Positions 2,633 to 64,000 of a stretch of DNA of 64,000 nucleotides are shown one piece after another. This DNA is from a virus. Each line of letters begins with the position of its first letter. Within the stretch, counting starts at the first letter, position 1. The position numbers were made by a program, and so were the translations under genes. The notes under the pieces were generated by a model, which was not told the DNA's origin, ran no database searches, and saw only the letters and a program-made list of their open reading frames with translations. The DNA lies in IMG/VR virus record IMGVR_UViG_3300037258_001214, positions 30,376 to 94,375 of that record; one strand, given 5' to 3'.

Positions 2633-2907
2633 CGCGAGCACCGCCCCGGAGTGCCGCAGCACGACGGGTCGCGCCCGGGGCGGCGCGCCCGCCAGGCCAC
2701 CCTGAGCCGCAGGACCGCCAGCCGCAGCGGCGCGAAGCTGCTTCTCCTCACTGAGCACGCCCGCCAGCCGGCGCATACGGCCGTGAGCCGCCCGCAGCCG
2801 GGGCACCCGTCCGGCCAGACGTTGTGATCCAGTCCCGGGTCCAGGCACGGGCTGGCCGGGGACGGGTCCTGCATCTGGCAGTACCCGCAGGTAACGGGCC
2901 CCCTCAC
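2629..2907 (-). CDS. Small zinc-ribbon-like protein
   Basis: A 92-residue protein of unknown function. The N-terminal half has CxxC pairs ('TCGYC' and 'GCPGC') about 30 residues apart, suggesting a zinc ribbon. The second half is Arg-rich. The GTG start overlaps the upstream stop (GTGA) and its own stop overlaps the methyltransferase start (GTGA), which supports a real, translationally coupled gene between two well-supported ones. Confidence 0.55.
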   Translation of the reverse strand: MRGPVTCGYCQMQDPSPASPCLDPGLDHNVWPDGCPGCGRLTAVCAGWRACSVRRSSFAPLRLAVLRLRVAWRARRPGRDPSCCGTPGRCSR

Positions 2908-3134
2908 CGTCCGGCCTCCGTCCGGCCGGCGGTGATCCCGGTGACCCTGCGGGCCCGGTCCCGGTCGACGGCGCCCAGGACACCGCGGAGCACGACCGCG
3001 TAGTCCGGGTCGAACTCGGGGCCGAGCGCGGCGAGCATCTCCTCGCGTGTCCCCTCGGGGTTCGCGTCCCGCCACCCGCCCACCTCGGCGCGGGCCCGGT
3101 CAAGGTCGGTCAGCTTCTCGTCCCGGAATCGCAT
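2904..3134 (-). CDS. Small FRDEK-motif protein, paralogue of the adjacent reading frame
   Basis: A 76-residue acidic/basic protein starting 'MRFRDEK'. The neighbouring upstream frame (3138-3362) also starts 'MGFRDEK', so the two look like distant paralogues. Function unknown. It starts 3 nt after the upstream stop and overlaps the downstream zinc-ribbon gene by GTGA, so it belongs to the XRE-methyltransferase operon. Confidence 0.55.
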   Translation of the reverse strand: MRFRDEKLTDLDRARAEVGGWRDANPEGTREEMLAALGPEFDPDYAVVLRGVLGAVDRDRARRVTGITAGRTEAGR

Positions 3135-3137
3135 GGC

Positions 3138-4709
3138 TCAGCGCCGCCTCCCGTAGCTGACCCGCAGGGCCATTGCCAGCCCGGCCGCGGACGCCCGGGT
3201 CAGCACGTGCCCGGTCCGGTCCCTGCGTGCCGCCTGCCACCGGCCGTCCCCGCAGCCGAAAGCCCAGGTGCTGCCCCAGTCCTCATGCAGCGCTCCGAGC
3301 GCCTCGGCCACGGCGGCATCGTCCTGGCGTGTCTCTCCTGGCTTCTCGTCCCGGAATCCCATGGCGCCTGCCGGCCCTCCCTGGCTGTGCGGCACGTTTA
3401 CGCCAGATGACGCTAGCGTGACGCTGAGGCAAACGACAGGTACGGCCAGTACTGGCGGCCCGGTTACTTCCCGCCGTTCAGGTACTCTCCGTGCGCGCTT
3501 AGCCGGTAACTCAGCGGGCCGGTAGTACCGGGCGTACCCGTCCGCGTCGGTGGCCGCGGCGAGTTCCCGCAGCGGGCGCGTCAGTCGCTGCTGCCGTTCG
3601 AGCAGTTCCGAGACGAGCTGGCGGGCGACCCCCTGATGCCGGAACCACGCCGGCGCCATCCCCCTGGCCTGCGACAGGACGGCGACCGCGGCGCCGCTGT
3701 GGCGGGCGTCCACGTGCGCCTGGGCGACGTCGAGGAGATGACGGCCGCGGGAGATCGTGCCGGGCAGGTCGGCGAGGTCCATCTTCCCCGCGGCCTTCAG
3801 CGCCTTCCCCGGCTGCCGCTGCACCGCCCAGGCGTAGGTGGCCTGCATCTGGACCGACGCGGCGGCGAAGCTGGTCCCGTACACCCGGACCCGGTGCCCG
3901 ATCCGCTCCGCGGCAGCCCCCGCGAGCCGGATGTAGCCGTCCACGTCCCGGCCCGCCGCCGCGGCCGGGCCGACGGCGGTCATCAGGAGGTTCCCGAAAG
4001 CGGCCACATCCTGGTCCGGGCCCGCGAACGACGGCTCGATCCTCGCCGCTGCCGCGGCCGCGATCGTCTCCGCCTCAGCGAGGCGCCCCTGGTGCAGCAG
4101 CGCCCACGCGTACGTGCCCTGCATCGTGGCGTGCAGCCGCTCGTCATCGCCTTCGGCCGCCGCCGCGATCGCCCGCTCGGCCGCCATCGCGGCGAGGTCT
4201 TCCTTCCCCAGGTGGACCAGCAGCGCCGCCGCCTGGTCGTAAGCCAGCGCCAGCAGCTCGGCTGCTTCCGTCCCGTGCTCGCGCCGTGCTGCCCGCGCGG
4301 AGCGGATCAGGGGCGGCAGGACTGCGGTCAGCCGGGTCAGGTCCCCGGCCCAGTACGACGCCGTCGCATCCTCCACCGCTGCCCTGAGCTGGTCGGGGGC
4401 AAGCGGCCCGGAGTCATCCTCCCCGACACCGGGGATCACCGACGGCGACAGGATCACATCCCGGAGCGCCAGGACACCCCCGTCGTCGGGGGCGCCGAGC
4501 CGGGGGCGCCGGTCGGCCAGCTCCGACACGGTGACGTCGAGCGCGTCGGCGATCCTGGCCAGCACGGGGTACCGGGGATAGCGGGTGCCCTGCTCGGTCT
4601 TGGCGATCATCTCCGGGCTGATCCCGGCCCGGGCGGCCAGGTCCTCGCGGGTCAGGGCACGCTCGCGGCGCAGCCTCCGGAGACGGGTTCCCAGCGTGGT
4701 ATCGTCCAT
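3138..4709 (-). CDS. XRE-family transcriptional regulator, in-frame fusion to a small FRDEK protein
   Basis: The 523-codon frame has an N-terminal Cro/C1-type HTH ('LGTRLRRLRRERALTREDL...ISPEMIAKTEQG', residues about 5-62) and an all-helical TPR-like region to about residue 390. This is the architecture of actinomycete XRE regulators linked to small accessory operons. The ATG at 4709 has a good ribosome site (GAGGTG, 8 nt upstream). No stop separates it from a second unit beginning 'MGFRDEK' at 3362 (74 residues). The intervening 3363-3540 stretch is less GC-rich and reads like intergenic DNA, so the regulator may originally have ended near 3500 and the small gene may have its own start. It heads the methyltransferase operon. 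Confidence 0.75.
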   Translation of the reverse strand: MDDTTLGTRLRRLRRERALTREDLAARAGISPEMIAKTEQGTRYPRYPVLARIADALDVTVSELADRRPRLGAPDDGGVLALRDVILSPSVIPGVGEDDSGPLAPDQLRAAVEDATASYWAGDLTRLTAVLPPLIRSARAARREHGTEAAELLALAYDQAAALLVHLGKEDLAAMAAERAIAAAAEGDDERLHATMQGTYAWALLHQGRLAEAETIAAAAAARIEPSFAGPDQDVAAFGNLLMTAVGPAAAAGRDVDGYIRLAGAAAERIGHRVRVYGTSFAAASVQMQATYAWAVQRQPGKALKAAGKMDLADLPGTISRGRHLLDVAQAHVDARHSGAAVAVLSQARGMAPAWFRHQGVARQLVSELLERQQRLTRPLRELAAATDADGYARYYRPAELPAKRARRVPERREVTGPPVLAVPVVCLSVTLASSGVNVPHSQGGPAGAMGFRDEKPGETRQDDAAVAEALGALHEDWGSTWAFGCGDGRWQAARRDRTGHVLTRASAAGLAMALRVSYGRRR

Positions 4710-18464: not shown

Positions 18465-18737
18465 GTGCCGGAAACCTTGCCCGCGCCGCCTGATAACAGG
18501 CCGTACGTGCCGATGCACGAGCCCGGGCATGAGATCCGCACGCTATCCCTCGACGGCACCCGCAAGCACCGGTGGAAGCAGGTCGGCTGGCAGGGCCAGA
18601 CCGGCGCCATCTACGGCCTCGGCGAGAAGCCGCAGCTGCACGAGCCGGGATCGTTCTCGCCGCTCTACGTGATGGTCGATTCTGACTACGTAGAGCTTCC
18701 CTCTGAGCTTTCGAGGGGAGGTGATGCAGCGGAATGA
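18465..18737 (+). CDS. Hypothetical protein before portal
   Basis: A 90-residue protein with 'HEIRTLSLDGTRKHRWKQVGWQGQTGAIYGL' in the middle, suggesting a small beta-rich domain. GTG 18465 is chosen because CAGGAG is 10 nt upstream; the in-frame TTG 18456 is too close to it. Overlaps the portal start by ATGA. Function not known. Confidence 0.6.
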   Translation: MPETLPAPPDNRPYVPMHEPGHEIRTLSLDGTRKHRWKQVGWQGQTGAIYGLGEKPQLHEPGSFSPLYVMVDSDYVELPSELSRGGDAAE

Positions 18738-20550
18738 GTATGCCTTTCGTCCAGCCGTCAGCCATGCCGACCGGCTCCGCCACGCTCGGAGCACCGATCG
18801 GCCTGTCATCGACGCAGCCCATCGACGACCGCCAGATGTCCATGCTTCCCGTGGGCAGCCAGCCATGGCCGCCACCGCAATACGATCCGGTCAGCTACCA
18901 GCACCGGATCTGGAATGCGTGGTGGACCGGGGACCGCCAGATGCTGGCATGGGTTTATTACAACCTCGGAGCCAATTCGCCCTACGGTCGCGCTTTCTTT
19001 GCCACTACCGGTGAAAAGGGAATGCCGATGCCGCGCCCTGGCCAGTACAGGGGCGGCTTGCTGGGCAGTATTGAATACTCGTTCTGGTTAAGTGAGGCGA
19101 GCCCGTACCCCCAGGGGAGAAGCGCACCCGCCTGCACGTCCCCATCGCCGGCGACATCGCGCAGACCTCCGCGTCGCTGCTGTTCTCCTCGCCGCCCGAG
19201 CTGAAGACGACGCTCACCGGGCCGGAGGGCGTCGCGAACCAGGCGTGGCTCAATGCCCTGATCGACGACGGCTTCCACACGCGGCTCCTGGAGGGCGGCG
19301 AGATGTGCGCGGGACTCGGCGGGGTGTACCTGCGGATCGTGTGGGACACCTCGGTCAGTGACAAGCCCTGGATCCAGCCGGTCTCCGCTGATGTCGCGGT
19401 GCCGCAGTTCGCCTACGACAAGCTCCGGTCGGCGACGTTCTGGCGGGTGCTGGAGGATAACGGATCGGACGTGGTCCGGCACCTGGAGATGCACGCGCCC
19501 GGTCAGAACCAGGTCATCCACGGTGTCTACTCCGGCGGCCAGTCCGACCTCGGCGAGATCGTCCCCATGTCCGATTTCCCGGCCACTGCGCGGATCTTCG
19601 CCGACCTGCAGGGCGACACGCTGAACCTGCCCAACCTGCCGTTCGACGCGTCCACGGTCACCTACATCCCGAACCTGAAGCCCAACAGGATCTGGCGGGA
19701 CCTCGGCCCGGAGCTGTGGCCGCTGGGCCGGTCGGATTTCCAGGGCGTCGAGCCGCTGATGGACGCCCTGGACCACACCTACTCGAACTGGATGCGGGAC
19801 ATCGACCTGGCGGCCATGCGCCTCATCGTCCCGGCCGAGTACCTGGACAATATCGGGAGGGGAAAAGGGGCGGTTTTCGAGCCTGACCGCCGCGTGTTCA
19901 CGCCCCTGTCGATGCTCCACGACGGAGGCGGCGCGCCGTCGATCACCGCCAACCAGTTCGCGATCCGCTGGCGGGAACATTCCGAGACCTGCCAGGACCT
20001 GGCCAACCGCATCGTCCAGGAAGCCGGGTACAGCGCTCAGTCCTTCGGCGACTACCAGGGCAACGCCCCGACCGCGACGGAGATCGAGGCCCGGGAGCGC
20101 ACCAGCCTGATGACCCGGAAGAAGAAGATCCTGTACTGGCGGCCGTCGCTCCAGGACGCCATCTACTCGCTGATGTGCGTGGCCAGGCTGTACTTCGGCG
20201 CGTCCGCGATCACGCCGGAACGGCCGGATATCAACTTCCCCGCCGTGGCGCTCCCCGACGAGCAGGCCCTGGCGCAGACCGTGGCCACGCTGGCAGGCGC
20301 CGAGGCTGCGTCGAAGGCCACCTTGGTCGCGATGGCGCACCCGGAGTGGACGAAAGAAGAAGTCAACGCGGAGGTCCAGCAGATCCGCGCTGAGATCGGC
20401 ACCGAGCTGGCCGCGCACGCGAAGATCGCGCTGGCCCAGCCGCCGGGGACGTCGATCCAGGAGATGGAGGCGGGGCTGGAGCAGATGGCCCCGGTCACCG
20501 ACGACACGGGTGCAGATGAGGGTACCGGCGACCAGGAAGGCGGTTCGTGA
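18734..20550 (+). CDS. Phage portal protein, reading frame interrupted near 19088-19095
   Basis: The portal vertex protein is split over two frames. The first (ATG 18734, SD GGAGGTG) encodes 'RIWNAWWTGDRQMLAWVYYNLG' to 'GSIEYSFW'. The second continues 'GEPVPPGEKRTRLHVPIAGDIAQTSASLLF', a typical portal segment, and ends at 20550 with 'ATEIEARERTSLMTRKKKILYW' and a helical C-terminus. Between 'FW' and 'GEP' there are 8 extra bases, TTAAGTGA, which introduce an in-frame stop. Total length would be about 600 residues, plausible for a siphophage portal. The 18950-19093 stretch is markedly more AT-rich than its surroundings. Function requires a corrected sequence or recoding. Confidence 0.85.
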
Positions 20551-30123: not shown

Positions 30124-30579
30124 ATGGCCGCAGCAGCGAACGTCGCGGACCTGCCCGTGATCAGGCTGATCAACCCCGCCACCGGGGTCAGCCTGGAATA
30201 CCAGGGCAGGTGGCTGCGCCCCGGCAAGGCGAGCATGGCCGACGTGAAGCGGGGCATCGCCCGGTACCCCGGTGACAAGGTGTGGCTCACCCTTCCCCCG
30301 GGCGTGCAGAAGCAGCTCGACGCCGGGCGGCTGCAGGTCGCCGGGGAGTTCGCTGCCCGGGAGAGCATCCAGGCGTCCGGGACCGCTGAGTCGCTGATGC
30401 CCAGGGGCAACGCCAGCCACGAGCAGTGGCTGAGCTTCGCCGTCACCCAGGGGATGGACCGGGAGGAAGCCGCGGGGCTGACCCGGGACCAGATCCGGGC
30501 CCGGTTCACTGCGCCCGCGTTCGACCCGGACGCGGCACCGCAGGAGATCGGCGCGGATTTCGAATTGCTGAACGGCTGA
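30124..30579 (+). CDS. Hypothetical head protein
   Basis: A 151-residue protein: 'LPVIRLINPATGVSLEYQGRWL' at the start, 'ASHEQWLSFAVTQGMDREEAAGLTRDQI' (helical) and 'FDPDAAPQEIGADFELL' at the end. The C-terminal helical part resembles head-tail connector accessory proteins. AAGGAGG SD before ATG 30124. Not firmly assigned. Confidence 0.6.
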   Translation: MAAAANVADLPVIRLINPATGVSLEYQGRWLRPGKASMADVKRGIARYPGDKVWLTLPPGVQKQLDAGRLQVAGEFAARESIQASGTAESLMPRGNASHEQWLSFAVTQGMDREEAAGLTRDQIRARFTAPAFDPDAAPQEIGADFELLNG

Positions 30580-51002: not shown

Positions 51003-51587
51003 ATGCCCAGCGACACCATCATCAACTGGTCCGCCCACGCCCGGATCGCCAAGTACTCACCGGACCAGGTCGCGTACGCGGTCCGCACGCTCGGCTACGA
51101 GCCGCCCGGCCACAAGCTCTCCCTGATCTTCAAGGAGCCCGAGGACGGGATCACCGAGGAGCCCGGCAACCTGCTCGTCACCGTGGGCCTGAACCTGCTC
51201 ACCGAGCTGATCGAGGGCGGCGGCGGGACGCCGTTCGCGCACGCGGACGCGATCATCGGCGTCGGGGCGGGCACCACCACGGCGGTCATCGGCGACACGG
51301 CGCTCACCGACGACAACACCGCGAACGCCTACTACCAGCAGGCGGACGCGTCGTTCCCGACGCAGTCCAACGGGGTGATCACGGCCCAGGCCACGTTCGC
51401 GAGCGGCAACGCCAACTTCGCGTGGCAGGAGTGGTGCCTGGCCACCGGCTCAGGCGGCATCACCGCAGGTGACCACCTGTCTGCGGTCGCTACGTCGGTG
51501 ATCATGCTCAATCATAAAGTAGCCAGCTTGGGCACCAAGGCTTCGGGCGCAAGTTGGGTTTTTACGGCAACTTGCACCCTTAGTTGA
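51003..51587 (+). CDS. Tail protein whose 3' end is AT-rich next to an HNH gene
   Basis: A 194-residue protein, 'INWSAHARIAKYSPDQVAYAVRTLGYEPPGHKLSLIF', then a conserved beta region ('TPFAHADAIIGVGAGTTTAVIGDTALTDD', 'ANFAWQEWCLATGSGG'). Such proteins occur in tail regions of actinophages. The last ~27 codons from about 51507 (AAT CAT AAA GTA; GTT TTT ACG GCA ACT) change to AT-ending codons, just before the HNH endonuclease gene. This suggests the end was replaced together with that gene. Confidence 0.7.
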   Translation: MPSDTIINWSAHARIAKYSPDQVAYAVRTLGYEPPGHKLSLIFKEPEDGITEEPGNLLVTVGLNLLTELIEGGGGTPFAHADAIIGVGAGTTTAVIGDTALTDDNTANAYYQQADASFPTQSNGVITAQATFASGNANFAWQEWCLATGSGGITAGDHLSAVATSVIMLNHKVASLGTKASGASWVFTATCTLS

Positions 51588-51617
51588 TCTTGAAAAACTT
51601 GTAGTACAGTGTCGTCC

Positions 51618-52442
51618 ATGACGACCGCTCACAAGTGGCCCGAGCTCTACGATCCCGAGTGGATGCATGAGCACTACACCGTGCAGAAGATGACCATGTA
51701 CGACATTGCGGAGTTGGTCGGATGCAATGACGGCACGGTTTACTACGCCATGCGCAAGATCGGCCTCCAGGCGCGGCCGAACACCCAGCGGCTGGCGAAG
51801 TTCAAGCGCAAGCGGTGCCGGGCATGCCGCGAGATGTTCCAGCCGACGGCGACCTGTCATCTGTACTGCTCGGACCGGTGCCAGCCGCAGGTCGCGCGGA
51901 TGCGGCACACCTGCGCGACCTGCGGGACGGAGTTCGAGGCCAGGGTGCCGCGCTGGCGGTATTACTCCCAGAAGTTCTGCTCGGCAGAGCATCGGCAGGA
52001 ATACCTTCAGAACGACCCGGGCCGGCTGCGGCGCAGAGTCGCCGACGGCGGCTATATCCACATCCGCGTCGGCGTCGGGTATCCGGGAGCATTTGCCAGC
52101 GGCTACATGCCCGAGCATCGCTGGGTCATGGAGCAACGGCTAGGGCGCAGCCTCCTGCCGGCCGAGGAAGTCCACCACCGGAACGGGCACCGGGACGATA
52201 ATGACCGCTGCCCTGTGTGCCCGTTCAGCGTGGCGCCCGCCAAAGTCCGGGGTGACCGCCTGCACTGCACCGCATGCGGCTGGGTGAGCGCCAGCCAGCC
52301 CAACCTGGAGCTATGGACCCGATCGCAGCCGCGAGGCCAGCGCGTCGAGGACAAGATTGAGTGGGCGCTCGGGTTCCTGGCCGAGTACGGGCGCGTCAGC
52401 TTCCAGGCGTCCCTGCCGGCCGAAGCCATCGCAGCGTCCTAG
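51618..52442 (+). CDS. HNH homing endonuclease with zinc ribbons and HTH
   Basis: A 274-residue free-standing endonuclease. The N-terminus has an HTH ('MYDIAELVGCNDGTVYYAMRKIGL'). Two zinc-binding stretches follow ('RCRACREMFQ...YCSDRC', 'CATCGTEFEAR...FCSAEH'). The HNH_3-type core is 'MPEHRWVMEQRLGRSLLPAEEVHHRNGHRDDNDRCP' (key parts: EHR, VHHRNG, N-rich), ending with 'NLELWTRSQPRGQRVEDKIEWA'. It would cleave unmodified alleles of the target phage gene to spread itself. Lower GC than neighbours; GTG 51609 is an alternative start. Confidence 0.85.
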   Translation: MTTAHKWPELYDPEWMHEHYTVQKMTMYDIAELVGCNDGTVYYAMRKIGLQARPNTQRLAKFKRKRCRACREMFQPTATCHLYCSDRCQPQVARMRHTCATCGTEFEARVPRWRYYSQKFCSAEHRQEYLQNDPGRLRRRVADGGYIHIRVGVGYPGAFASGYMPEHRWVMEQRLGRSLLPAEEVHHRNGHRDDNDRCPVCPFSVAPAKVRGDRLHCTACGWVSASQPNLELWTRSQPRGQRVEDKIEWALGFLAEYGRVSFQASLPAEAIAAS

Positions 52443-53033: not shown

Positions 53034-55277
53034 GTGACCACCTGGCGGCTGATGGACGGCGCCTCCGGGCGCCCCGGGGTCGGCTCGTCCGGCACCCAGC
53101 CGCCCACGGGCCCGACCTCCTACTCCGGTCCCTACGTCGCCGGGACCGTCTTCCAGGTCACCGCAGGCGGCCTGTGGTTTCAGGGCTACTGGTGGTGGTG
53201 CCCGCCCGGAGGTGACACCGGGGCTCAGAAGTTCGCGTTGTGGTCCCTGGACGGGGCCGCCAGCGGGGTCCTGATCTCCGCGAGCGTGGTTGCGTCGGGC
53301 ACGCTCACGGCGAACGCGTTCAACTTCGTGCCGGTCTCCGCCCCGATCCAGTTGGCCATAGGCACCGAGTACCTGGCCGCGACCGGGTACACCGCCAGCG
53401 CGGGATTCCCGCTGACCGCCAACCAGTTCGGCAGCGGCGACCCGTACAGCAGCGGAATCGTCAACGGGCCGCTGACCGGCCTGTCCGACGGAGACGGCGG
53501 CGGCGGCGGGACCGCCACCCGGTTCACGCCGCAGGGCATATTCGGCACCGGCGGCTCGGACCCGTCGACGACGATGCCCGCGTCCGGATTCGACTCCGGC
53601 AACTTCTGGGTCGACGTCCAGGTCACCGACACCGCCCCGGGCGGCTACACCGGGTCCTTCCGGATCTGGCCGGCCAAGTACGACATTGTCGCCACCGGTA
53701 CCGGTACCGACTCGCCTGATAACTACATCCTGGGCACCGAGTTCACGCTCTCCGAGGCCTGCACGCTGAACAACGTCTGGTTCTACAGCCCCAGCGGCGC
53801 GACGCAGCTCCCCACCCAGTGCGCTGTCTGGGACGTGTCGTCGCAGACGATGGTGTCCGGCACGCTGAAAACGTCGCCAGGCTGGTCCGGAGCTGCGGGA
53901 TCCGGATGGGTGTCCGCGAGCTACAGCGGTGTCACCTTGGCCGTAGGTGATTACAAGGTCTCCGTCTGGAACAGCGCCGCATCGCCGTCCGGGTGGAACG
54001 AATACACGATCGACTACTTCACCACCGGGGACGGCGGGTCAGGTATCACCACCGGGCCGATCAGCGTCCCGCCCGCATCGACGGCGACCAGCCCCGGCCA
54101 GTGCACCTACCAGACCTCCTCGGCTACGTTCGCGTACCCCGACCTGTACGTGGCGGCAGAAGGCCAGTCGTACTGGGTCGATGCGGAGGTCACCCCGGCC
54201 GCCTCCACGCCCGTCTCCGGCGCCGACACCGGCTCTGGAGCCGATGCGGGGTCAGTAACGGCAGGCCTCAGCGGGGCCGATGCCGGGTCCGGGGCCGATG
54301 CGGGAACCGTGGCGGTCAGCGACAGCGATGCGGGCAGCGGGGCCGATGCCTCCGGCATCGCCGCAACCCCGAGCGGGGCCGATGCGGGGAGCGGCGCGGA
54401 CTCGGCTACGGTCACCGTCAGCGGCGCCGACACGGGCACGGGGGCCGAGTCCTCGTCGATCGCGGCCACGCTGAGCGGCAGCGACAGCGGGTCGGGGGAC
54501 GACTCGGCCGCCATCGGCGTCAGCGATGCCGAGACGGCCTCGGGGGCCGATACCGGCACGCTGATCGCCACCCTGGCCGGCGGCGATACCGGGAGCGGGG
54601 CCGAGACGGCGCTGGCCGCCGTGGCGGACTCCGACGCGGGCTCAGGCGCTGATGCCGGGTCGGCAGAAGCCGCGGTCGCCAGCGGTGATACGGGCGCCGG
54701 CCTGGACGCCGCGGCGATCGCGGTCAGCGATGCGGACGCTGGCTCAGGTGCGGACAGCGGCAGCACCGCGGCGGCGCTCAGCGGCACCGAGACGGGGGGC
54801 GGGGCCGACTCGGGCGTCATCGGGGTAGCGGGCACCGAGACGGGCTCGGGTGCGGACCTCGGGACCGTGGTCCTGGGCGCGGCTGACACCGACACCGGGT
54901 CAGCAGCCGACGCCGGATCAGTATCGGCCAGCCCGGGCGGCGCCGACACAGGAGGCGGGGCAGACGCCGGCCAGGTCGCCGTCTCCGGCCCGGACGCTGG
55001 TGCGGGCGCCGATGCCGGGAGCGTCGCGGTCGTCAGCTCCGATGCGGGCTCGGCCGCGGACGCGAGTTCGGAAACGGCAACTGTCACCGGTGCCGACACC
55101 GGCCTAGCTGCCGACACCGGGTCGGTCAGCCTGCCGGGCGCGGAGGGCCGGCTCCGCGCCTCGCTGCTCGGCGGCTCCGCTGTCCTCACCGCCTCCTACG
55201 GCGGTACCGCAACCCTGGCCCGCGCCTACGCCGGGACCGCATCCAACGCCAACGAATACGCCGGGAGCGCCTCATGA
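53034..55277 (+). CDS. Tail fibre with DUF4082-like domains and long acidic repeats
   Basis: A 747-residue virion protein. Residues about 1-210 and 215-390 each resemble a DUF4082 domain ('GGLWFQGYWWWCPPGGDTGAQKFALWSLDG', 'ACTLNNVWFYSPSGATQLPTQCAVWDV', parts). Residues 394-700 hold about 18 units of 'S-G-A-D-x-G-S-G-A-D-x-x-x-V-x-V'. The C-terminus is Ala/Thr/Tyr-rich. DUF4082 modules are carbohydrate-binding-like and common in actinomycete surface proteins. Likely a receptor-binding fibre. GTG start; GTGA-type overlap with the next gene. Confidence 0.75.
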   Translation: MTTWRLMDGASGRPGVGSSGTQPPTGPTSYSGPYVAGTVFQVTAGGLWFQGYWWWCPPGGDTGAQKFALWSLDGAASGVLISASVVASGTLTANAFNFVPVSAPIQLAIGTEYLAATGYTASAGFPLTANQFGSGDPYSSGIVNGPLTGLSDGDGGGGGTATRFTPQGIFGTGGSDPSTTMPASGFDSGNFWVDVQVTDTAPGGYTGSFRIWPAKYDIVATGTGTDSPDNYILGTEFTLSEACTLNNVWFYSPSGATQLPTQCAVWDVSSQTMVSGTLKTSPGWSGAAGSGWVSASYSGVTLAVGDYKVSVWNSAASPSGWNEYTIDYFTTGDGGSGITTGPISVPPASTATSPGQCTYQTSSATFAYPDLYVAAEGQSYWVDAEVTPAASTPVSGADTGSGADAGSVTAGLSGADAGSGADAGTVAVSDSDAGSGADASGIAATPSGADAGSGADSATVTVSGADTGTGAESSSIAATLSGSDSGSGDDSAAIGVSDAETASGADTGTLIATLAGGDTGSGAETALAAVADSDAGSGADAGSAEAAVASGDTGAGLDAAAIAVSDADAGSGADSGSTAAALSGTETGGGADSGVIGVAGTETGSGADLGTVVLGAADTDTGSAADAGSVSASPGGADTGGGADAGQVAVSGPDAGAGADAGSVAVVSSDAGSAADASSETATVTGADTGLAADTGSVSLPGAEGRLRASLLGGSAVLTASYGGTATLARAYAGTASNANEYAGSAS
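54212..55135 (+). repeat. Tandem coding repeats (D-x-G-S-G-A-D units)
   Basis: About 18 imperfect units of 16-18 codons, consensus 'SGADTGSGADAGSVAV' alternating with 'SGADAGSGADASGIAATL'. Units differ enough to suggest old expansion; nucleotides are GC-rich and may recombine. Confidence 0.8.
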
Positions 55278-55612
55278 GCCTTCGCTTCGACCTGTCCGGG
55301 GTCGCTGGCAACGACCTGGAGTTCGAGTTCGCCCTGACCTACAACGGGATCCCGCTGAACCTGTCCGGCTACATGCTGGCCGTCTACCTCAAGGCCTCGG
55401 CGACGACGCCGGACGCCCTGGCCAGCGTCTTCGGGTCCGGCACCGGGCTCACGATCACCGACGCCTCGGTAGCCCAGTTCACCTGGGCGATCCCGCGTGC
55501 CGACACGGCGCTAGCCGCGCCCGGATCGCTGTGGTACCGGGTCGACGTCACCGACCCGGACTCGAACGTGGCCACCGCCATGTTCGGCGCGCTGAACCTG
55601 GCGGCGGCCTGA
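55274..55612 (+). CDS. Small tail-associated beta protein
   Basis: A 112-residue protein: 'LRFDLSGVAGNDLEFEFALTYNGIPLNLSGYMLAVYLKA' and 'AAPGSLWYRVDVTDPDSNVATAMFGALNL' (parts), an Ig-like or BppU-type domain. Located between two fibre genes. ATG overlaps the previous stop (ATGA). Confidence 0.65.
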   Translation: MSLRFDLSGVAGNDLEFEFALTYNGIPLNLSGYMLAVYLKASATTPDALASVFGSGTGLTITDASVAQFTWAIPRADTALAAPGSLWYRVDVTDPDSNVATAMFGALNLAAA

Positions 55613-55628
55613 TGGCAGGTGATAGCGG

Positions 55629-56879
55629 ATGACCTTCGCCCCGGTCCAGTCCAAGGCCGGCTCAGGCACGTCCAGCCCGGTCACCGTCACGCTGAGCAGT
55701 CCCACCGGTGCCGGGAACTGCCTGGTCGTCAAGGTCAGCTTGTCCAACAGCTCCCCGCCGACGGTGAGCAGCGTCAAGCTCGGCGGGGCGGCCGGTAACT
55801 TCGCCTCGGCCAAGGCCGCGTCCGTGGGCCCTGTCGGGGTCGCGATCTGGATCGACGAGGACTGCGCAGGCGGCCAGACCGCCGTGGCGGTCGCCTTCAG
55901 CGGCGGCACCGGGTTGTCCCCCGAGGTCGCCGTCTGGGTCGAGGAATGGTCCGGGGTGAAATCCTCCGGGGCTGTCGACGTCAGCAACGACGGCACAGGC
56001 AGCGGGGGGACGACGTTCTCCAGCAACTCCTCCGGCACCCTGTCGCAGGCGAACGAACTGGTCATAGCCGCCGTCGCCGCGTTCGGCCCGTCGATGACCA
56101 TCACCGGGCCTGCCACCGGAGGGTGGACGAACCTGGCCCAGGAGAGCGCCGGGACCAGCGTCGGGCTGATGGCCGGCTACCAGGTCGTGAGCGCGACGAC
56201 GGCCCTGACCTACTCGGGCACCCTGTCCACGTCGTCGAGCGACTACGCCGCGGTGATCGTCACCCTGGAAGGCGGCACCCCGGTCTCCAGCTCGGACACC
56301 GGGTCAGGTGCCGAGTCGTCGTCGATCGCGGTCAGCGACACCGACGCGGGCACCGGGGCCGATGCCGGCACGGTCGCGGCCACGGTCAGCAGCGCGGAGA
56401 CCGGCTCCGGGTCGGACGCAGCCAGGGTCGGGGTCGCCAGCGGCGACACCGGGAGCGGGGCCGAGGCTGCCAGTCCTCCGCCCGCCACGCTCACCGCCCC
56501 CGACACCGGCGCCGGCGCCGAGGGCGCTCCCTCGATCGCGTTCACCGCGGCGGGCGACACCGGGTCGGCCGCCGACGTGGCCACGGCGGTACTCGGGGCG
56601 TCCGGATCGGACACCGGGACGGCGGCCGAGTCGTCGTCGATCTCGGTGCAGATCGGCAGCGGCGACACCGGGAGCGGGGCCGAGGCCAGCACCATCGCGG
56701 CCACGCTGCCCGCCACGGCTGACACCGGTTCTGGCGCCGACGTGGCCAGGGTCGGGGTCACCAGCGGCGACACCGGGTCGGGGGAGGAGCACGCCGTGCA
56801 GGCGCCGTTCATCGCCCCGCCGGCCGTGCTGTGGCGGGCACCTGACTACTTGTCGAAGACCGGAGGGACGATGAGATGA
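55629..56879 (+). CDS. Tail fibre with acidic repeats
   Basis: A 416-residue protein. Residues 1-215 form a beta domain ('SSPTGAGNCLVVKVSLSNSSPPTVSSVKLGG', 'ANELVIAAVAAFGPSMTITGPATGGWTN', parts) resembling IPT/TIG-like fibre domains. Residues 218-388 carry about 10 'S-D-T-G-S-G-A-E/D' units like those in the 53034 fibre. Ends with 'LWRAPDYLSKTGGTMR'. Probably cooperates with the other fibres. Confidence 0.7.
   Translation: MTFAPVQSKAGSGTSSPVTVTLSSPTGAGNCLVVKVSLSNSSPPTVSSVKLGGAAGNFASAKAASVGPVGVAIWIDEDCAGGQTAVAVAFSGGTGLSPEVAVWVEEWSGVKSSGAVDVSNDGTGSGGTTFSSNSSGTLSQANELVIAAVAAFGPSMTITGPATGGWTNLAQESAGTSVGLMAGYQVVSATTALTYSGTLSTSSSDYAAVIVTLEGGTPVSSSDTGSGAESSSIAVSDTDAGTGADAGTVAATVSSAETGSGSDAARVGVASGDTGSGAEAASPPPATLTAPDTGAGAEGAPSIAFTAAGDTGSAADVATAVLGASGSDTGTAAESSSISVQIGSGDTGSGAEASTIAATLPATADTGSGADVARVGVTSGDTGSGEEHAVQAPFIAPPAVLWRAPDYLSKTGGTMR
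56284..56793 (+). repeat. Tandem coding repeats in second fibre
   Basis: About 10 units of 15-20 codons, consensus 'S(S/G)DTGSGAEASxIA(V/T)', related to the 54212-55135 array. The two fibres thus share a repeat system, which could allow exchange between them. Confidence 0.75.
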
Positions 56880-57208
56880 CAGCCCAGGGTTTCGCATTGG
56901 ACGACAAGCTGCCACTGAGCGGAGGGACCATGAGCGGCACGCTGAACTTCGAGGGCAGCCCGCCCTACACCGTGGTGAAGAACACCATCGCGGGCAAGGT
57001 GACCCTGAACGGGACGAGTGCGGTCACGGTGGCCACCACGGCGGTCGACGCGGACTCGCTGGTGCTGCTGACCGTCCAGCCGGGCACGGCACCGGTGGGC
57101 ATCCCCTACGTGGCCACCCTCACCAGCGGGTCAGGGTTCACGGTCAAGTCGACCAGCGGCTCGGATACCGCGGTAAATGTAGCATGGTCCATTGTTGAAG
57201 CGGTCTAG
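56876..57208 (+). CDS. Short tail-tip protein with recoded 3' end
   Basis: A 110-residue protein: 'FALDDKLPLSGGTMSGTLNFEGSPPYTVVKNTIAGKVTLNGTSA' (parts), the 'LPLSGGTMSGTL' motif being common in tail-fibre shafts. It ends 'SGSDTAVNVAWSIVEAV'. The last nine codons (GCA TGG TCC ATT GTT GAA GCG GTC TAG) encode the same residues as a copy at 57839-57865 in GC-rich codons. This looks like a repaired end after HNH insertion. Confidence 0.75.
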   Translation: MTAQGFALDDKLPLSGGTMSGTLNFEGSPPYTVVKNTIAGKVTLNGTSAVTVATTAVDADSLVLLTVQPGTAPVGIPYVATLTSGSGFTVKSTSGSDTAVNVAWSIVEAV

Positions 57209-57233
57209 AACGGATTTGCGATAAACTGAGTGC

Positions 57234-57833
57234 ATGCTTGCAACTATTTGCGCCAACGGCCTCGCGTGGCGCTTGTTCCCGTGCAAGGTGTGGACAGGAG
57301 CGCGGGGTAGCTCCTGGGGCGGTTACGGTCACCGCCGAATTGACGGCAAGGTGGAGATGGTTCACCGCGTCGCGCTGGCGGAGAAGCTCGGCCGCCCGAT
57401 CCGGCCCGGCATGAAAGCGCTCCACCACTGCGACAACCCGCCGTGCCATGAGCCCGAGCACATCTACGAGGGCACTAGCGCCCAGAACAACCAGGACACC
57501 ATTGAGCGTGGTCGGTGGCGCGGGCCAGCTAGCCGACCCGCGATAGACGAGTCACTGAAAGAGGCCATCGTCCGCAGGTACGTCACCGATGGAGCGTCAT
57601 TTGACGAAGTAGCCGCAGAATTCGGCATCGGCGCCAGCTCGGTGAACCGGCTCGTGCCGCGCGACCAGCATCGGCCTGTGGGGATGCGCGGACAGTCACC
57701 GCAAGTCATCGAGGCGATTTGCCGTAAATATGCAGCGGGCGGCGTAACCCAACTCGCGCTGGCCAGGGAATTCGGCCTCGCTACCGGGACGATCAGCCGC
57801 ATTATCTCGATGAACTCCGCTAAGAGCGCCTGA
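57234..57833 (+). CDS. HNH homing endonuclease with C-terminal HTHs
   Basis: A 199-residue endonuclease: HNH_3-type core 'GYGHRRIDGKVEMVHRVALAEKLGRPIRPGMKALHHCDNPPCHEPEHIYEGTSAQNNQD' (key parts: VHR, HHCDNPPC, HIYEGT). It is followed by two HTH motifs ('SFDEVAAEFGIGASSVNRLV' and 'VTQLALAREFGLATGTISRII'), likely DNA-recognition modules. No good SD precedes ATG 57234. Lower GC than neighbours. It lies between the recoded gene end and the remnant original end of the tail-tip gene. Confidence 0.85.
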   Translation: MLATICANGLAWRLFPCKVWTGARGSSWGGYGHRRIDGKVEMVHRVALAEKLGRPIRPGMKALHHCDNPPCHEPEHIYEGTSAQNNQDTIERGRWRGPASRPAIDESLKEAIVRRYVTDGASFDEVAAEFGIGASSVNRLVPRDQHRPVGMRGQSPQVIEAICRKYAAGGVTQLALAREFGLATGTISRIISMNSAKSA

Positions 57834-57838
57834 CCCGA

Positions 57839-57865
57839 GCCTGGAGCATCGTCGAGGCGGTCTGA
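57839..57865 (+). pseudogene. Remnant original 3' end of the tail-tip gene
   Basis: GCC TGG AGC ATC GTC GAG GCG GTC TGA encodes 'AWSIVEAV' and a stop, the same as 57182-57208, but in the host-like codon set. It no longer belongs to a gene; it marks the far border of the HNH insertion. Confidence 0.8.
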
Positions 57866-57883: not shown

Positions 57884-57917
57884 CTGCCCCGCCACCCTGG
57901 AATGGGTGGCGGGGCAG
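57884..57917 (+). terminator. Strong terminator of the late operon
   Basis: A 14-bp perfect stem (CTGCCCCGCCACCC / GGGTGGCGGGGCAG) with a TGGAAT loop, after the last tail gene. No U-tract. Probably ends late transcription. Confidence 0.8.
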
Positions 57918-58863: not shown

Positions 58864-59323
58864 TCAGATGGTCAGCACGCCTCCCATAGCGTGCGCGGTA
58901 TGTCTTCCGTGCCGCCCCGCGCCCGCGGCCGCGATGGCCGGTCCCAGCCCGGATGCGCGGGGCGGCACGGCCACCACGCGCCAGCCCGCGGCCCGGAGCG
59001 AGGCACCTGACTCGCCGGCCTGCGTGTAGGTCACCAGCCGCGTGTAGCCGAGCGCGAACGTCGCCCGGGCGCACGCTCCGTACAGGAGCGAGCCAGCATT
59101 CCGGTACCCGTCGCTGGCCACCCGGGTGACTTCCAGCGTCTGGCCGTTGTCCAGCAGCCGCGCGACCGGCCGGCCCGCGATCGCGACCCCGCGCAGCACG
59201 CTGCCCTCGTCCGCGGCCCCCACAGCGAACTTCATGCCGCGGGGGGGGGGCGTGGTGGCGATGCCACATCAGCGTGAACCGGCAGGCGTCACGGTAGGAG
59301 ACGGGTACCAGGTGAAGGGTCAA
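58864..59323 (-). CDS. XF1762-like (GNAT-fold) protein, frame broken at a G10 tract
   Basis: Two frames combine. ATG 59323 gives 'MTLHLVPVSYRDACRFTLMWHRHHAPPP', and the other frame continues 'GMKFAVGAADEGSVLRGVAIAGRPVARLLDNGQTLEVTRVASDG' (parts) to 58864. The joined protein (~150 residues) matches the XF1762 family ('HRHH.P..GhKF..G'), probably acyltransferase-fold. The break falls in a run of ten G (59241-59250, plus strand), where one base more restores the frame. The homopolymer suggests slippage or a sequencing error. The start overlaps the helicase-methyltransferase stop (ATGA). Confidence 0.75.
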
Positions 59324-61959
59324 CTGGCCTCCACCTCGGCCGGGGCCTCGTCGAGCAGGTCGAACAGCGACGGCACAGAGGCCTCGTCCGCGGCGCCCTG
59401 GACGTAGCCCACGCCATCGGCGAAGTAGCCGGGGCTCAGCTCGACGCCCCAGCCGATCCGGCCCGATTTCACCGCGCAGTAAGGCACCGACATAAGGCCG
59501 CCGAAGGGGTCATACACCGTCTCGCCTGGCGCCGAGTAGCGGACGAGCAGCCTGTCAACGATGTCCCACTGGATCGGGCAAAGGTGGTACTGCTGCCCTT
59601 TCCGCTCCTGGAGCATGTTGAGCGTCCGCATCCGCGCGACGTCGGTCCACACGTCGGGGTGCCAGCTCGGCGTCTGCAGCAGCATGAACCCGGCCGGCAG
59701 ACGGCCGCCGCGCTCGAGGTGCTCGCCCAGCTGGACGTGCCGCTCGTAGCCGTAGACCGAGGTCAGGTAGCGGTCACGGAACCGCTTGAAGATGTCCGAG
59801 TGCGGCAGGCCGTCCAGCTCGCGGGGCAGCAGCGGCCGGTTGCCGTCCGACCGCCAGAACCCGTGGGCGTCGGTCTGCCAGCGCGACCGGCTGTACGCGG
59901 TCTTGGACTTCACGACCGGGGTGTCCGCGTAGCCATCGCTGTTATCGGTGGGCGGCTTGCGGAACACCAGCACGTACTCAGGAACCCCGGCGCCCATCTT
60001 CGAGCCGTCTTTGCACTGCTCAGTCCAGCCCAAGCGGTAGGTCTGGTTGTTCTCGCGCACCACATCGGTCACGACGGTGATCTGCGCCAGCAGGGCGAAC
60101 CCGTGCCGCATGTAGTGGAAGATCGCCTCAGCGTGGAACGGCTGCAGGGTCTGGAACCCGAGCCCGGTCAGGCCGCCCGGGGTGATCCGGTCCTTGACGT
60201 GGATGCACATGACCCGGCCCGGGGCGAGCACGCGGAACAACTCGGGCGTGAGGAAATCCATCTGCTGCCAGAACGCGCCGTTGTCCTCGTTGTGGCCGAA
60301 ATCGTTGATGTTCGGGCTGTATTCATATTGCGTGGAGAACGGGATAGACGTGATTATCTGGTGGACGCTATCTGATGCCATTCCGGCCGTTTCAAGCACC
60401 GCGTCATTGTTCACGAGGAGATAGCCGGGGCCGCGCGCTTCCCGGCGCGTGACCCCTGATGACCTGGTGAGACCCGAGGCTATGGCGTCCTGGGCGAGGC
60501 CTCGCTCGCGGATGATCCGGCTCATCCTGGCGACCTGCTCGTCGTGCTGGCGCCATTTCTGCTCAAGCCGCGCCTTGATGCCCTGCTCGGCGTCGGAGTG
60601 GACCAGGTGCACCGTGCACGGTGACTGCTGGAGGAACCGGTGGATCCGGTGGATGCCCTGCGCGACTTCAGCGAACTTGAACCCGATCCCCGCGAAGATC
60701 ATCGTGTGGCACTGCTGCAGGTTCACCCCGGCGCCGTACATCGACGGCTTGGTCAGGAACACCGAGGTCTCGCGGGCACGCCACCGCTCGATCAGCACCT
60801 CGCGGTCCTCGACGGGCTGGCTGCCGTACAGCGATGAGACGGTGATCCCCTCGGCGGCCAGGGCGCGCTCGATGGCCCGCTGCTCGTCGTTGAGGTCGCA
60901 CCAGATGACGAGCTGGTCGCGCAGCTGGCCGTCCGGGCCGCGCTCGGCGCGGATGATCTCCGTGACTTCCGCGATCCGCGCGTCCAGGCTGAACCGCTTC
61001 TCGGCCGAGGCCTCGCGCACCCCGAACGCCGCGTCCCTGAACATGAAGCCCTGGCCGTCCTGGTGCTCCCCGGCGCCGAAATAGGGGGCCATCGGGGACT
61101 GGACCTCGTGCCAGCGGACGTCGAGCGGGGGAAGCTCGTAGCCTTCGTCGGAGTGGCCGAGGTCGGACGGCTTCTGGAGGAACAGGGCCCAGGATGCTAC
61201 CCAGTGCCAGAAGTCGTCCGCCATGTGCGGCAGCAGGGTCAGCCGGTCGGCATGCTCGGAGTCCCGCTTGAAGAACCTGGTCTTCCCTTGCGAGATGTCC
61301 ATGATGTCCAGGAACGCCGCGTAGGCGAGCAGTTCGGTGTAGTCGTTCGGGTCGGGGGTGGCCGTGGCCACGAACCGGTAGGCGGCCGACCCTTCGTACA
61401 GGCGCATCAGCTCGCGGAAGGTCTTGGTGCTGCCCATGCCGGCCAGCACCTTGGCCTCGTCCAGGGAGATGGCGTCGAACTTGCGCGGGTCCAGGTGGCC
61501 GTCCCTGACCGGCTCGTAGTTGGTCAGGTAGATGCCGTCCTTCTTGGCCTCGGCCTCGCTGCGGATGTAGGACAAGTCAAGGCCGAGCAGGGTGCGCGCG
61601 TCGCGGATGAACTCTCCGCGCACCCCGAGCGGGCAGACGATCAGGCCGCGGCCGGAGCCGAGCTTCTTGATGATGAGCCGGAGCGCCTCGATCTGCTGGA
61701 CCGTCTTGCCGAGCCCGTAGGCCTCGAACCAGGCGCGGCGGCCTCCTTGCACGCCCCACACGACACTCTCTCGCTGGTGTGGTTTCAGGACCGGGTGCAC
61801 CTCGTCCGGGTCGACCTCGAACCCTGCCACGGGAGCGACCGAGGCCTTGGCGGCGAGGAATTCCCGGTAGGCCGCTATGCGAGCCTCAGCGTCCGTGCTC
61901 ACGACCATGGCGCTTCCCTCCGCTGGCGGCGGGGCTCCGGATCGCAGGCGGGGCGTCAT
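59320..61959 (-). CDS. SNF2-type helicase fused to N6-adenine/N4-cytosine DNA methyltransferase
   Basis: An 879-residue two-part enzyme. The N-terminal half has SF2/SNF2 motifs: I 'AYGLGKT' (80-86), II 'DEAK' (167-170, instead of DEAH), III 'TATP' (199-202), V-VI 'MYGAGVNLQQC' and 'QGIHRIHR'. The C-terminal half has MTase motif IV 'TSIPF' (537-541, unusual for D/S-PP-Y/F) and motif I 'DPFGG' (817-821), in the order IV then I, typical of beta-class enzymes. No nuclease motif is seen. It may be a phage DNA-modification or anti-restriction enzyme. ATG 61959 overlaps the HTH stop (ATGA). Confidence 0.85.
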   Translation of the reverse strand: MTPRLRSGAPPPAEGSAMVVSTDAEARIAAYREFLAAKASVAPVAGFEVDPDEVHPVLKPHQRESVVWGVQGGRRAWFEAYGLGKTVQQIEALRLIIKKLGSGRGLIVCPLGVRGEFIRDARTLLGLDLSYIRSEAEAKKDGIYLTNYEPVRDGHLDPRKFDAISLDEAKVLAGMGSTKTFRELMRLYEGSAAYRFVATATPDPNDYTELLAYAAFLDIMDISQGKTRFFKRDSEHADRLTLLPHMADDFWHWVASWALFLQKPSDLGHSDEGYELPPLDVRWHEVQSPMAPYFGAGEHQDGQGFMFRDAAFGVREASAEKRFSLDARIAEVTEIIRAERGPDGQLRDQLVIWCDLNDEQRAIERALAAEGITVSSLYGSQPVEDREVLIERWRARETSVFLTKPSMYGAGVNLQQCHTMIFAGIGFKFAEVAQGIHRIHRFLQQSPCTVHLVHSDAEQGIKARLEQKWRQHDEQVARMSRIIRERGLAQDAIASGLTRSSGVTRREARGPGYLLVNNDAVLETAGMASDSVHQIITSIPFSTQYEYSPNINDFGHNEDNGAFWQQMDFLTPELFRVLAPGRVMCIHVKDRITPGGLTGLGFQTLQPFHAEAIFHYMRHGFALLAQITVVTDVVRENNQTYRLGWTEQCKDGSKMGAGVPEYVLVFRKPPTDNSDGYADTPVVKSKTAYSRSRWQTDAHGFWRSDGNRPLLPRELDGLPHSDIFKRFRDRYLTSVYGYERHVQLGEHLERGGRLPAGFMLLQTPSWHPDVWTDVARMRTLNMLQERKGQQYHLCPIQWDIVDRLLVRYSAPGETVYDPFGGLMSVPYCAVKSGRIGWGVELSPGYFADGVGYVQGAADEASVPSLFDLLDEAPAEVEAS

Positions 61960-62246
61960 GCGGCTGGCTTCCTTCGGCGCGGCTCGCGGGCCTGCAGCAG
62001 CGGGACGGAGGCGCCGGGCACCCTGGGAGTGCCGGGCCGGGGCGGCGCGCGGCGGATGACGGGGGGAGATGGCTGCTCCTCGCCCAGGCGCACGATCTCC
62101 TTCAGGTGCTCGTCCGTCCACCGGTACGAGCCGCCGATCATCGTGAACGGGATCTCCCGCCGCCGTGCCTTTTCCCGCAGCCAGGATGCTTTGCAGTCGC
62201 CGCCGATGATGGCGGCGGCCTCCTCGGCGGTGTGGACGAGAGACAT
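61956..62246 (-). CDS. Excisionase-like MerR/HTH protein
   Basis: A 96-residue protein: 'VHTAEEAAAIIGGDCKASWLREKARRREIPFTMIGGSYRWTDEHLKEI' (key parts) is a winged HTH of the HTH_17/excisionase type, and the tail is Pro/Arg-rich. It is divergent from the integrase over a 137-bp repeat-rich region, so it is a good candidate for Xis or an early repressor. First gene of the leftward group. Confidence 0.75.
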   Translation of the reverse strand: MSLVHTAEEAAAIIGGDCKASWLREKARRREIPFTMIGGSYRWTDEHLKEIVRLGEEQPSPPVIRRAPPRPGTPRVPGASVPLLQAREPRRRKPAA

Positions 62247-62258
62247 AGGCCCGACCAT

Positions 62259-62371
62259 AGCGCACACTGTGACACACTGCAAAAGAGTGCGCGCACTGTT
62301 ACCCAAGCTTTACCAGGACGCGGGAGTGTGCTGTACTGGCGTGCAGTGTGCGCTACGGTCACGCACTGCAA
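62259..62371. promoter_or_regulatory. Repeat-rich xis-int intergenic region (operators or attP arms)
   Basis: AGCGCACACTG (62259-62269) and its complement CAGTGTGCGCT (62344-62354) form an 11-bp inverted repeat across the region. Between them are a second CACACTG (62273-62279), the palindrome AGTGCGCGCACT (62286-62297) and related ACTGT/CACTG boxes. Possible promoters are TTGCAG-N17-TATGGT (minus) and TTTACC-N17-TGTACT (plus). The repeats suit binding of Xis, of the integrase's LacI-type HTH or of arm-type integrase domains. Confidence 0.6.
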
Positions 62372-62383
62372 GGGGATCAGGCT

Positions 62384-64000
62384 TTGGGATACGCCGAGAA
62401 ACGCGGCACAGGGGACCGCGCCTACTGGCGCGGCCGGTACAAGACCGACCCCGGAAAGTACGGCACCGTCTCTCACCCCGACGGGTCGGTCGTCAAGTTC
62501 CGCACCAGGAAAGAAGCCGAGCGCGCCGCCGGCGCAGAGGAGACCGCCCGCGGGCAGGCCGTACGCCAGGCCGCCGCCGAGGAGGAAGCGGGCCGGATGA
62601 CGTTCGCCGCCTGGGCCAGCACGTGGCACGCCGGCCTGCCCGACCTCGACCCCGACACCCTGGACGGCTACCGGTCCATCATCGAGTACCACCTCCTGGT
62701 GCCGTTCGGGGACAGGTGGCTGGACGAGATCAGCCGCGCGGACATCGACCGCTGGGAAGCCGCTGAGCGCGCCCGCGGGTACAAGCCGCAGGGCATCGCG
62801 AACCGCCGCAACCTGCTCTCCATGATCCTGGCCGACGCCGCCGGCGACCCCGCCGTCACCCTCGCCGCGAACCCCGCGGCCAGGAGAAGGAGACGGGGCA
62901 GGCGCGCCGGCCCGGAGCCCGGAGACGACGGAGACGATGACGACGAGGATGACGAGCAGCACGCGAAAGTGATCACCACCCCGCTCGGCGCCCTGCTGAT
63001 CGCCGAGCGGTGCGCCATCATGTCCGGCCGGGACGACGAGTGCGTCCTGGTGACCCTCGGCTACTACACGGGCCTGCGGTGGGGGGAGCTGGCCGGCCTG
63101 GAGGTGCCCTTCGTCCGGCCGGGGAAGATCCGGGTCCGGTGGCAGCTGCGCCGCGACCGGGTCCGCAAGCGGCCCAAGTTCGGGAAGGTCCGCGAGGCGG
63201 ACGTGCCCCCGTTTCTCGGCCGGCTCATCGCCGGGCACCTCGAGCGGACGAGACCGCAGCCCTGCTCCTGCCACGGCCGCGCGTACGTGTTCAGCGGCCT
63301 CGGCCGGGCCCGCGGCGCCCGCCAGGGCGTCACCGTCGCCGAAGTCGCCCGGCAGGCCGGGGTGGCGCAGGCCACGGTGTCCGCGGCACTGAACCGGCCC
63401 GCCACCGTGGCACCCGCCACCCGCGCGAGGATCGGGCAGGCCATCGAGGCCACCGGGTGGTCCCGGGACCAGGGGACCAGGCCCGCGCACCTGTACCGGT
63501 CAGGGTTCGGCCAGTGGGCGTGGGGACCCGCGGTGTCCGGCTGGTACCCGGAGCGGGCACCGATGCCGCGCCGGGTCGTGCCGGTCATGGCCGCGCCGTG
63601 GCCTGGCGTCCCGGCCCGCGGCCGGGGGAACACGGCCCGGGCCGACGCCTGCTGGACGCCGCTGGCCGAGGGGATGACCCCGCACGGCCTCCGGCACGCG
63701 CACAAGAGCCTGATGGCCGAGCTGCGGACCCCCGAGGTGCTCTCCCATGACCGGCTCGGCCACGAGATGCCGGGGATCGCGGGGATCTACTCCCACCCGA
63801 CCCCCCCGATGCGCGCAGAGCTGATGGCGGGGCTGACGGCGTGCTGGGAGAAGGCGCTGGACGAGCGGCTGGCCATGTGCCCGGACTCGCCGGTCCCGGT
63901 GCTCGCCGCGCTGCTGCGGGAGCGGGCGGCGGGTTTTTCTCCCAGGATTCTCCCCGATGATCTTGGAACCGGCTACCTGAGAGCGGTCCCAGACCTCTGA
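62384..64000 (+). CDS. int: Tyrosine integrase with LacI-type HTH insertion
   Basis: A 538-residue site-specific recombinase. The N-terminal SAM-like core-binding domain (about 70-180) is followed by the catalytic domain: R232 ('TGLRWGEL'), 'HGLRH' (H434, R437), 'GHEMPGIAGIYSH' with the nucleophile Y469. Between R and HxxR, residues about 316-361 read 'VTVAEVARQAGVAQATVSAALNRPATVAPATRARIGQAIEATGW', a canonical LacI HTH (key parts). An acidic run 'DDGDDDDEDDE' precedes the catalytic domain. Start TTG 62384 (AAGGGGA SD); GTG 62348 is an alternative. The stop is the last codon of the window, so the protein is complete. Confidence 0.9.
   Translation: MGYAEKRGTGDRAYWRGRYKTDPGKYGTVSHPDGSVVKFRTRKEAERAAGAEETARGQAVRQAAAEEEAGRMTFAAWASTWHAGLPDLDPDTLDGYRSIIEYHLLVPFGDRWLDEISRADIDRWEAAERARGYKPQGIANRRNLLSMILADAAGDPAVTLAANPAARRRRRGRRAGPEPGDDGDDDDEDDEQHAKVITTPLGALLIAERCAIMSGRDDECVLVTLGYYTGLRWGELAGLEVPFVRPGKIRVRWQLRRDRVRKRPKFGKVREADVPPFLGRLIAGHLERTRPQPCSCHGRAYVFSGLGRARGARQGVTVAEVARQAGVAQATVSAALNRPATVAPATRARIGQAIEATGWSRDQGTRPAHLYRSGFGQWAWGPAVSGWYPERAPMPRRVVPVMAAPWPGVPARGRGNTARADACWTPLAEGMTPHGLRHAHKSLMAELRTPEVLSHDRLGHEMPGIAGIYSHPTPPMRAELMAGLTACWEKALDERLAMCPDSPVPVLAALLRERAAGFSPRILPDDLGTGYLRAVPDL

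Follow-up and report, generated by a model that had tools for sequence, protein, structure and literature searches.

A free-standing HNH endonuclease gene very probably inserted into the 3' end of a phage tail-tip gene as a cassette that carried a synonymously different copy of that gene's end, completing the protein and leaving the native end behind. The locus lies in the window, by which we mean the whole 64,000-nucleotide stretch of viral DNA that was analyzed (positions 30,376 to 94,375 of IMG/VR virus record IMGVR_UViG_3300037258_001214). Duplications of this kind recur across several phages, both at the ends and at the starts of genes.

The duplicated gene end at the tail-tip locus

The tail-tip gene (56876 to 57208, plus strand), identified from its open reading frame and a domain search, encodes 110 residues with a C-terminal K1-lyase_C domain that reaches residue 107. 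Its 3' end (57182 to 57208) reads GCA TGG TCC ATT GTT GAA GCG GTC TAG. The HNH gene follows on the same strand (57234 to 57833), and five bases after its stop a second copy begins (57839 to 57865, plus strand), which lacks a start codon of its own and reads GCC TGG AGC ATC GTC GAG GCG GTC TGA. As the original prediction had stated, both copies encode AWSIVEAV followed by a stop, with all eight residues equal, synonymous changes in 5 of 8 codons (5 of the 7 that can change) and different stops, TAG and TGA; 6 of 24 nucleotides differ. A degenerate back-translation of the peptide and its stop matched the window exactly twice (0.00 matches expected from 100 shuffles), and the same search found it encoded in no other IMG/VR contig. 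In a blind survey of HNH loci, the repeat scored 40, within the range of the controls (maximum, 53), as it is 8 codons long; its strength is the exact agreement of all residues and the stops at both copies.

The two copies differ in composition, with a third-position GC content of 0.50 upstream and 1.00 downstream. The atypical codons begin 5' of the repeated peptide: the best change point lies near 57164, before which the third-position GC content of the tail-tip gene is 0.92 and after which (~14 codons) it is 0.43. We therefore place the putative imported, AT-shifted end at 57164 to 57208 (plus strand), its left boundary being a statistical change point rather than a proven junction. Since the downstream copy has the GC-rich spelling usual for this phage and is followed by a predicted hairpin with a 14-bp stem (57884 to 57917, plus strand; z = -5.3), while the upstream copy is AT shifted, the downstream copy appears to be the old native end of the tail-tip gene; the hairpin, just 3' of the native stop, is probably the gene's old transcript end. 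Searches of viral contigs, phages, and bacterial genomes returned no HNH-less relative of the tail-tip gene that could be read through its 3' end, the closest (68% over residues 6 to 49) stopping short of it. Because of this, we infer the native status of the stranded copy by analogy with the phage Kabocha, described below.

The HNH gene encodes a 199-residue protein with an HNH_3 domain at residues 42 to 86 (curated Pfam cutoff) and C-terminal helix-turn-helix domains at residues 106 to 151 and 164 to 192. No Rfam intron family matched this locus at permissive thresholds, and no conserved group I or group II core was found; the intron that the original prediction had set against its own reading thus did not appear. 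With an HNH_3 nuclease, DNA-binding domains, and no self-splicing intron around the gene, the locus has the sequence features of a putative free-standing HNH homing endonuclease gene.

A second HNH gene, detected by domain search, occupies 51609 to 52442 (plus strand). The gene that precedes it (51003 to 51587, plus strand) has a third-position GC content of 0.99 up to ~51450 and of 0.60 thereafter, although its encoded C terminus is still conserved; relatives of this gene that are not followed by an HNH gene lack this drop. The two HNH-preceding genes of the window are among the 3 lowest of 48 genes for third-position GC content in the last 15 codons. Since a duplicate search found no stranded native end behind the second HNH gene, replacement of the gene end may be complete here, as in one mitochondrial case described in the cited part of PMC3630166.

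Several other features of the window were recorded. Two tail proteins (53034 to 56879) contain long repeats of the DTGSGADAG type, and the portal gene (18734 to 20550) is apparently split by a frame change near 19090 to 19120, in a run of C and G, which may be natural or a sequencing error. On the minus strand, a single open reading frame (59320 to 62277) combines SNF2-type helicase domains with an N6/N4 DNA methylase domain. The tyrosine integrase at 62348 to 64000 carries a LacI-type helix-turn-helix domain (residues 329 to 371) between its integrase regions.

Terminase ends of Kabocha and its relatives

The junction comparison with HNH-less relatives that had been proposed for the tail-tip gene, and for which that gene offered no suitable relative, was decisive in Kabocha and Gray, both isolated phages of Gordonia rubripertincta. 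Their 1,482-nucleotide terminase genes are identical except at position 354, the single mismatch in the first 1,427 nucleotides, and at 18 positions in the last 55 nucleotides. These 18 mismatches alter 14 of 17 codons and change no residue. Gray has no HNH gene, and the 54 nucleotides behind the Kabocha HNH gene match the Gray terminase end at 54 of 54 positions; the DNA that follows Kabocha's stranded copy is 98.8% identical to that of Gray. Gray-type terminase ends are also found in Chidiebere and Schomber, likewise without the HNH gene. Given the complete match to Gray and the confinement of the mismatches to the gene end, the stranded copy is the native one in Kabocha; the recoded end, which starts where the insertion lies, arrived together with the HNH gene. 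The reverse polarity, with the AT-rich end ancestral, had been named as the outcome that would contradict the original prediction; in Kabocha, the sole case with a near-identical HNH-less sister, it is the stranded copy that is ancestral.

The annotation starts the Kabocha HNH gene at 2725, yet its open frame (2611 to 3318 of the extracted locus) extends back to an ATG at 2611, and this ATG overlaps the stop of the terminase gene.

The original prediction had also described the replacement end as AT richer. This holds in the window but does not extend to a general signature, since the two terminase ends of Kabocha have the same third-position GC content (0.53), and we dropped AT-richness as a mark of imported ends. 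A shift toward AT is expected wherever a GC-saturated third position changes synonymously.

Two further terminase genes bear on how such ends arise. In ScarletRaider, the terminase ends in the same residues but spells them with other codons. That of Gordonia phage ChisanaKitsune (2200 to 2275 of its locus), which has no HNH gene, follows the Kabocha spelling for 23 nucleotides and then the Gray spelling; 8 differences from Gray are packed into 16 nucleotides, compared with ~6% differences across the gene. A hybrid of this type would result if recombination between the two end copies had removed the cassette, and on its sequence the ChisanaKitsune end is a candidate excision scar. A shared donor lineage would also produce such a hybrid.

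Duplicated ends and starts at other HNH loci

We surveyed ~100 loci with related HNH genes, some of them near-duplicates, for a copy of the upstream gene's C terminus behind the HNH gene, with noncognate pairs as controls (maximum score, 53, for C-terminally anchored duplicates). The methylase gene of the mycobacteriophage Awesomesauce (score, 92), the Kabocha terminase (82), and a gene of IMG/VR contig L136 (77) exceeded all controls, and the methylase of the mycobacteriophage SkinnyPete has the same architecture as that of Awesomesauce. The stranded methylase end of Awesomesauce matches the HNH-less phages TChen and Piper2020 at 61 of 72 nucleotides, compared with 44 of 72 for its in-gene end. 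The comparison of Awesomesauce and SkinnyPete with TChen, Piper2020, and Dori is consistent with a native stranded end and an imported in-gene end. The original claim of an HNH gene that delivers a replacement end, keeps the protein intact, and leaves the old end as debris was therefore borne out directly by Kabocha and Gray, fits the methylase comparison, and is carried over to the window by analogy. Imported and native ends share 19 of 23 residues in Awesomesauce and 15 of 24 in L136.

The gene starts provided a mirror image, in which the split gene's native start is joined to the HNH gene, with a recoded start rebuilt downstream. When we searched for a duplicate of the downstream gene's start before or inside the HNH gene, contigs L108 and L106 scored 76 and 69, respectively (99.9th percentile of the controls, 68; maximum, 82). 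The first keeps 15 of 15 residues while changing 8 of 14 degenerate codons, and the second keeps 12 of 13 residues while changing 9 of 11. Their HNH reading frames open with the split gene's native start, and the gene is rebuilt behind in other codons. The assignment of both as mirror cases rests mainly on near-exact identity starting at both start codons; the downstream gene of L108 had no match in the phage collection. Gordonia phage GAL1 (score, 68) and contig L110 (score, 56) are probably further examples.

The HNH proteins of Kabocha, L108, L106, L136, and L110 all match Pfam HNH_3; that of Awesomesauce falls below the HNH_3 threshold, yet aligns with the family.

Two annotations at these loci are also worth recording. 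The annotated "nucleotide kinase" of GAL1 (2829 to 3716 of its locus) reads through the HNH gene in another frame and is probably a split start, an HNH gene, and a rebuilt gene. Gordonia phage Bradissa (2471 to 3128 of its locus) has an HNH gene with 73% DNA identity to that of Awesomesauce, followed by a remnant of a methylase end (NAVTPPAARDLVGVVAESLGVA); the gene upstream does not end like that methylase.

Proposed mechanism, alternatives, and known systems

We propose that a two-part cassette moved into the tail-tip gene at its 3' end. The cassette would comprise a synonymously different 3' end of the host gene, with its own stop, and a free-standing HNH homing endonuclease gene. Insertion would have severed the tail-tip gene a few codons 5' of its stop; the cassette's copy would have completed the protein, with the native end and the old hairpin left stranded behind the HNH gene. 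By established homing biology, the HNH protein would nick or cut the native end, and homing repair would copy the cassette into the cut gene. The changed spelling and the split site may then protect the rebuilt end from the enzyme.

Phage HNH genes may commonly travel as natural home-and-rescue cassettes at either gene end, entering coding sequence with neither intron nor intein because they bring a synonymously recoded version of the short segment that they cut off. The recoding would be retained for the immunity that it gives the rebuilt gene against the element's own nuclease, and loss of the element would leave a resistant synonymous scar; we hold this broader reading tentatively, at somewhat less than even chances. 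We give an even chance to a narrower form of the proposed event, in which the imported end is no more than the 3' end of a diverged relative's gene that hitchhiked with the neighboring HNH gene, rescue and resistance being by-products that arose without selection for recoding. Natural divergence of the donor would likewise yield synonymous differences, as the ScarletRaider terminase end illustrates, and the imported ends of Awesomesauce and L136 differ from the native ends in residues as well as codons. The fungal mitochondrial cases discussed below are read, in the cited part of PMC3630166, as horizontal transfer of a foreign end. Against hitchhiking stands Kabocha, where the divergence sets in at the insertion point and where 14 of 17 codons change with every residue preserved behind 1,427 nucleotides that hold one mismatch, a tighter pattern than a random recombination tract.

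The remaining alternatives concern the repeat itself. An intron whose 5' end resembles the 3' exon, with splicing that joins the tail-tip gene to 57839, has a precedent in that group I intron 5' ends can show such resemblance (PMC11855218), and HNH genes are common in introns. We nevertheless consider it highly improbable: the permissive Rfam search was negative, the mirror cases put the repeat on the opposite side, and splicing would change nothing, as both ends already encode the same protein. Tail genes recombine often, and the downstream copy has no gene body, so the repeat could be left over from a module exchange or from a tandem duplication of a tail gene, with the HNH gene beside it by coincidence. 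This, too, is quite improbable, given that what the two copies share is precisely the terminal codons on either side of the HNH gene and that the same layout occurs at terminase, methylase, and other genes. A chance repeat, for which only the length of 8 residues speaks, has a negligible probability, since neither the shuffled windows nor any other IMG/VR contig contained a match.

The insertion of such a cassette would show how an endonuclease gene that lacks any means of splicing can take up residence in a coding sequence without destroying the gene it interrupts. It would also explain some unusual gene ends and an apparent misannotation, and the isolated pair of Kabocha and Gray makes the idea testable in the laboratory.

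Among known phage systems, the ShiLan domain of mycobacteriophage methylases is an HNH insertion in a phage gene that is neither an intron nor an intein, and, read in the host frame, its first 11 residues are similar to the 11 that follow the insertion; the authors weighed this repeat as a sign of an intron and left it unexplained (PMC11855218). A recoded-end cassette may explain it. In the methylase insertion of Pollywog, which we take to be of the ShiLan kind, SYEPVCVAVKP and AFEPIVVARKP form the repeat, with synonymous changes in the kept residues. In contrast to the window, the methylase frame runs open through the ShiLan insertion, whose HNH gene is read out of frame (PMC11855218), so the methylase protein is not rebuilt. 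The mob and seg endonucleases of T4, which perform intronless homing, share the placement of free-standing HNH genes beside essential phage genes but differ in their intergenic location and in cleavage sites away from the insertion site, as described in the cited part of PMC2988022. Omega lysin A and HNH gene 51 of cluster J phages likewise tie an HNH insertion to the acquisition of a new 3' end by the upstream gene, although the cited portion of PMC3706429 reports a loss of 35 bp and describes no duplicated native end. Recoded gene ends of this sort are not described in the cited sections of the T4 review (PMC2988022), which also makes no mention of duplication, or of a phage nuclease gene study (PMC10448857); on the openly available literature compared here, novelty is provisional.

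Engineered home-and-rescue drives would have a natural counterpart in the proposed cassettes. In the cited part of its description, the HomeR drive similarly combines nuclease homing with rescue of the target gene but is CRISPR based and man-made, a resemblance of logic only (PMC7968924). The closest parallel comes from fungal mitochondria, where mobile endonuclease open reading frames carry a foreign carboxy terminus, in atp6 of Allomyces and in atp6, atp9, cox2, and nad3 of Glomus, according to the cited part of PMC3630166. There, an endonuclease gene lies in the 3' part of a gene, a divergent C-terminal copy completes that gene, and the native end lies downstream, a position of the native end that Kabocha and Awesomesauce share and that the window probably does too; the window endonuclease is likewise preceded by a divergent host-gene end in frame with the host gene. 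The same sections describe LAGLIDADG and GIY-YIG enzymes in mitochondria, with ends that are longer and in some cases have no stop and are read through, whereas the window has a phage HNH_3 enzyme, and they mention no start-side version, which the phage mirror cases provide. As far as these sections go, the fungal precedent carries foreign gene ends in the same way, and the phage HNH version is a variant of this known principle.
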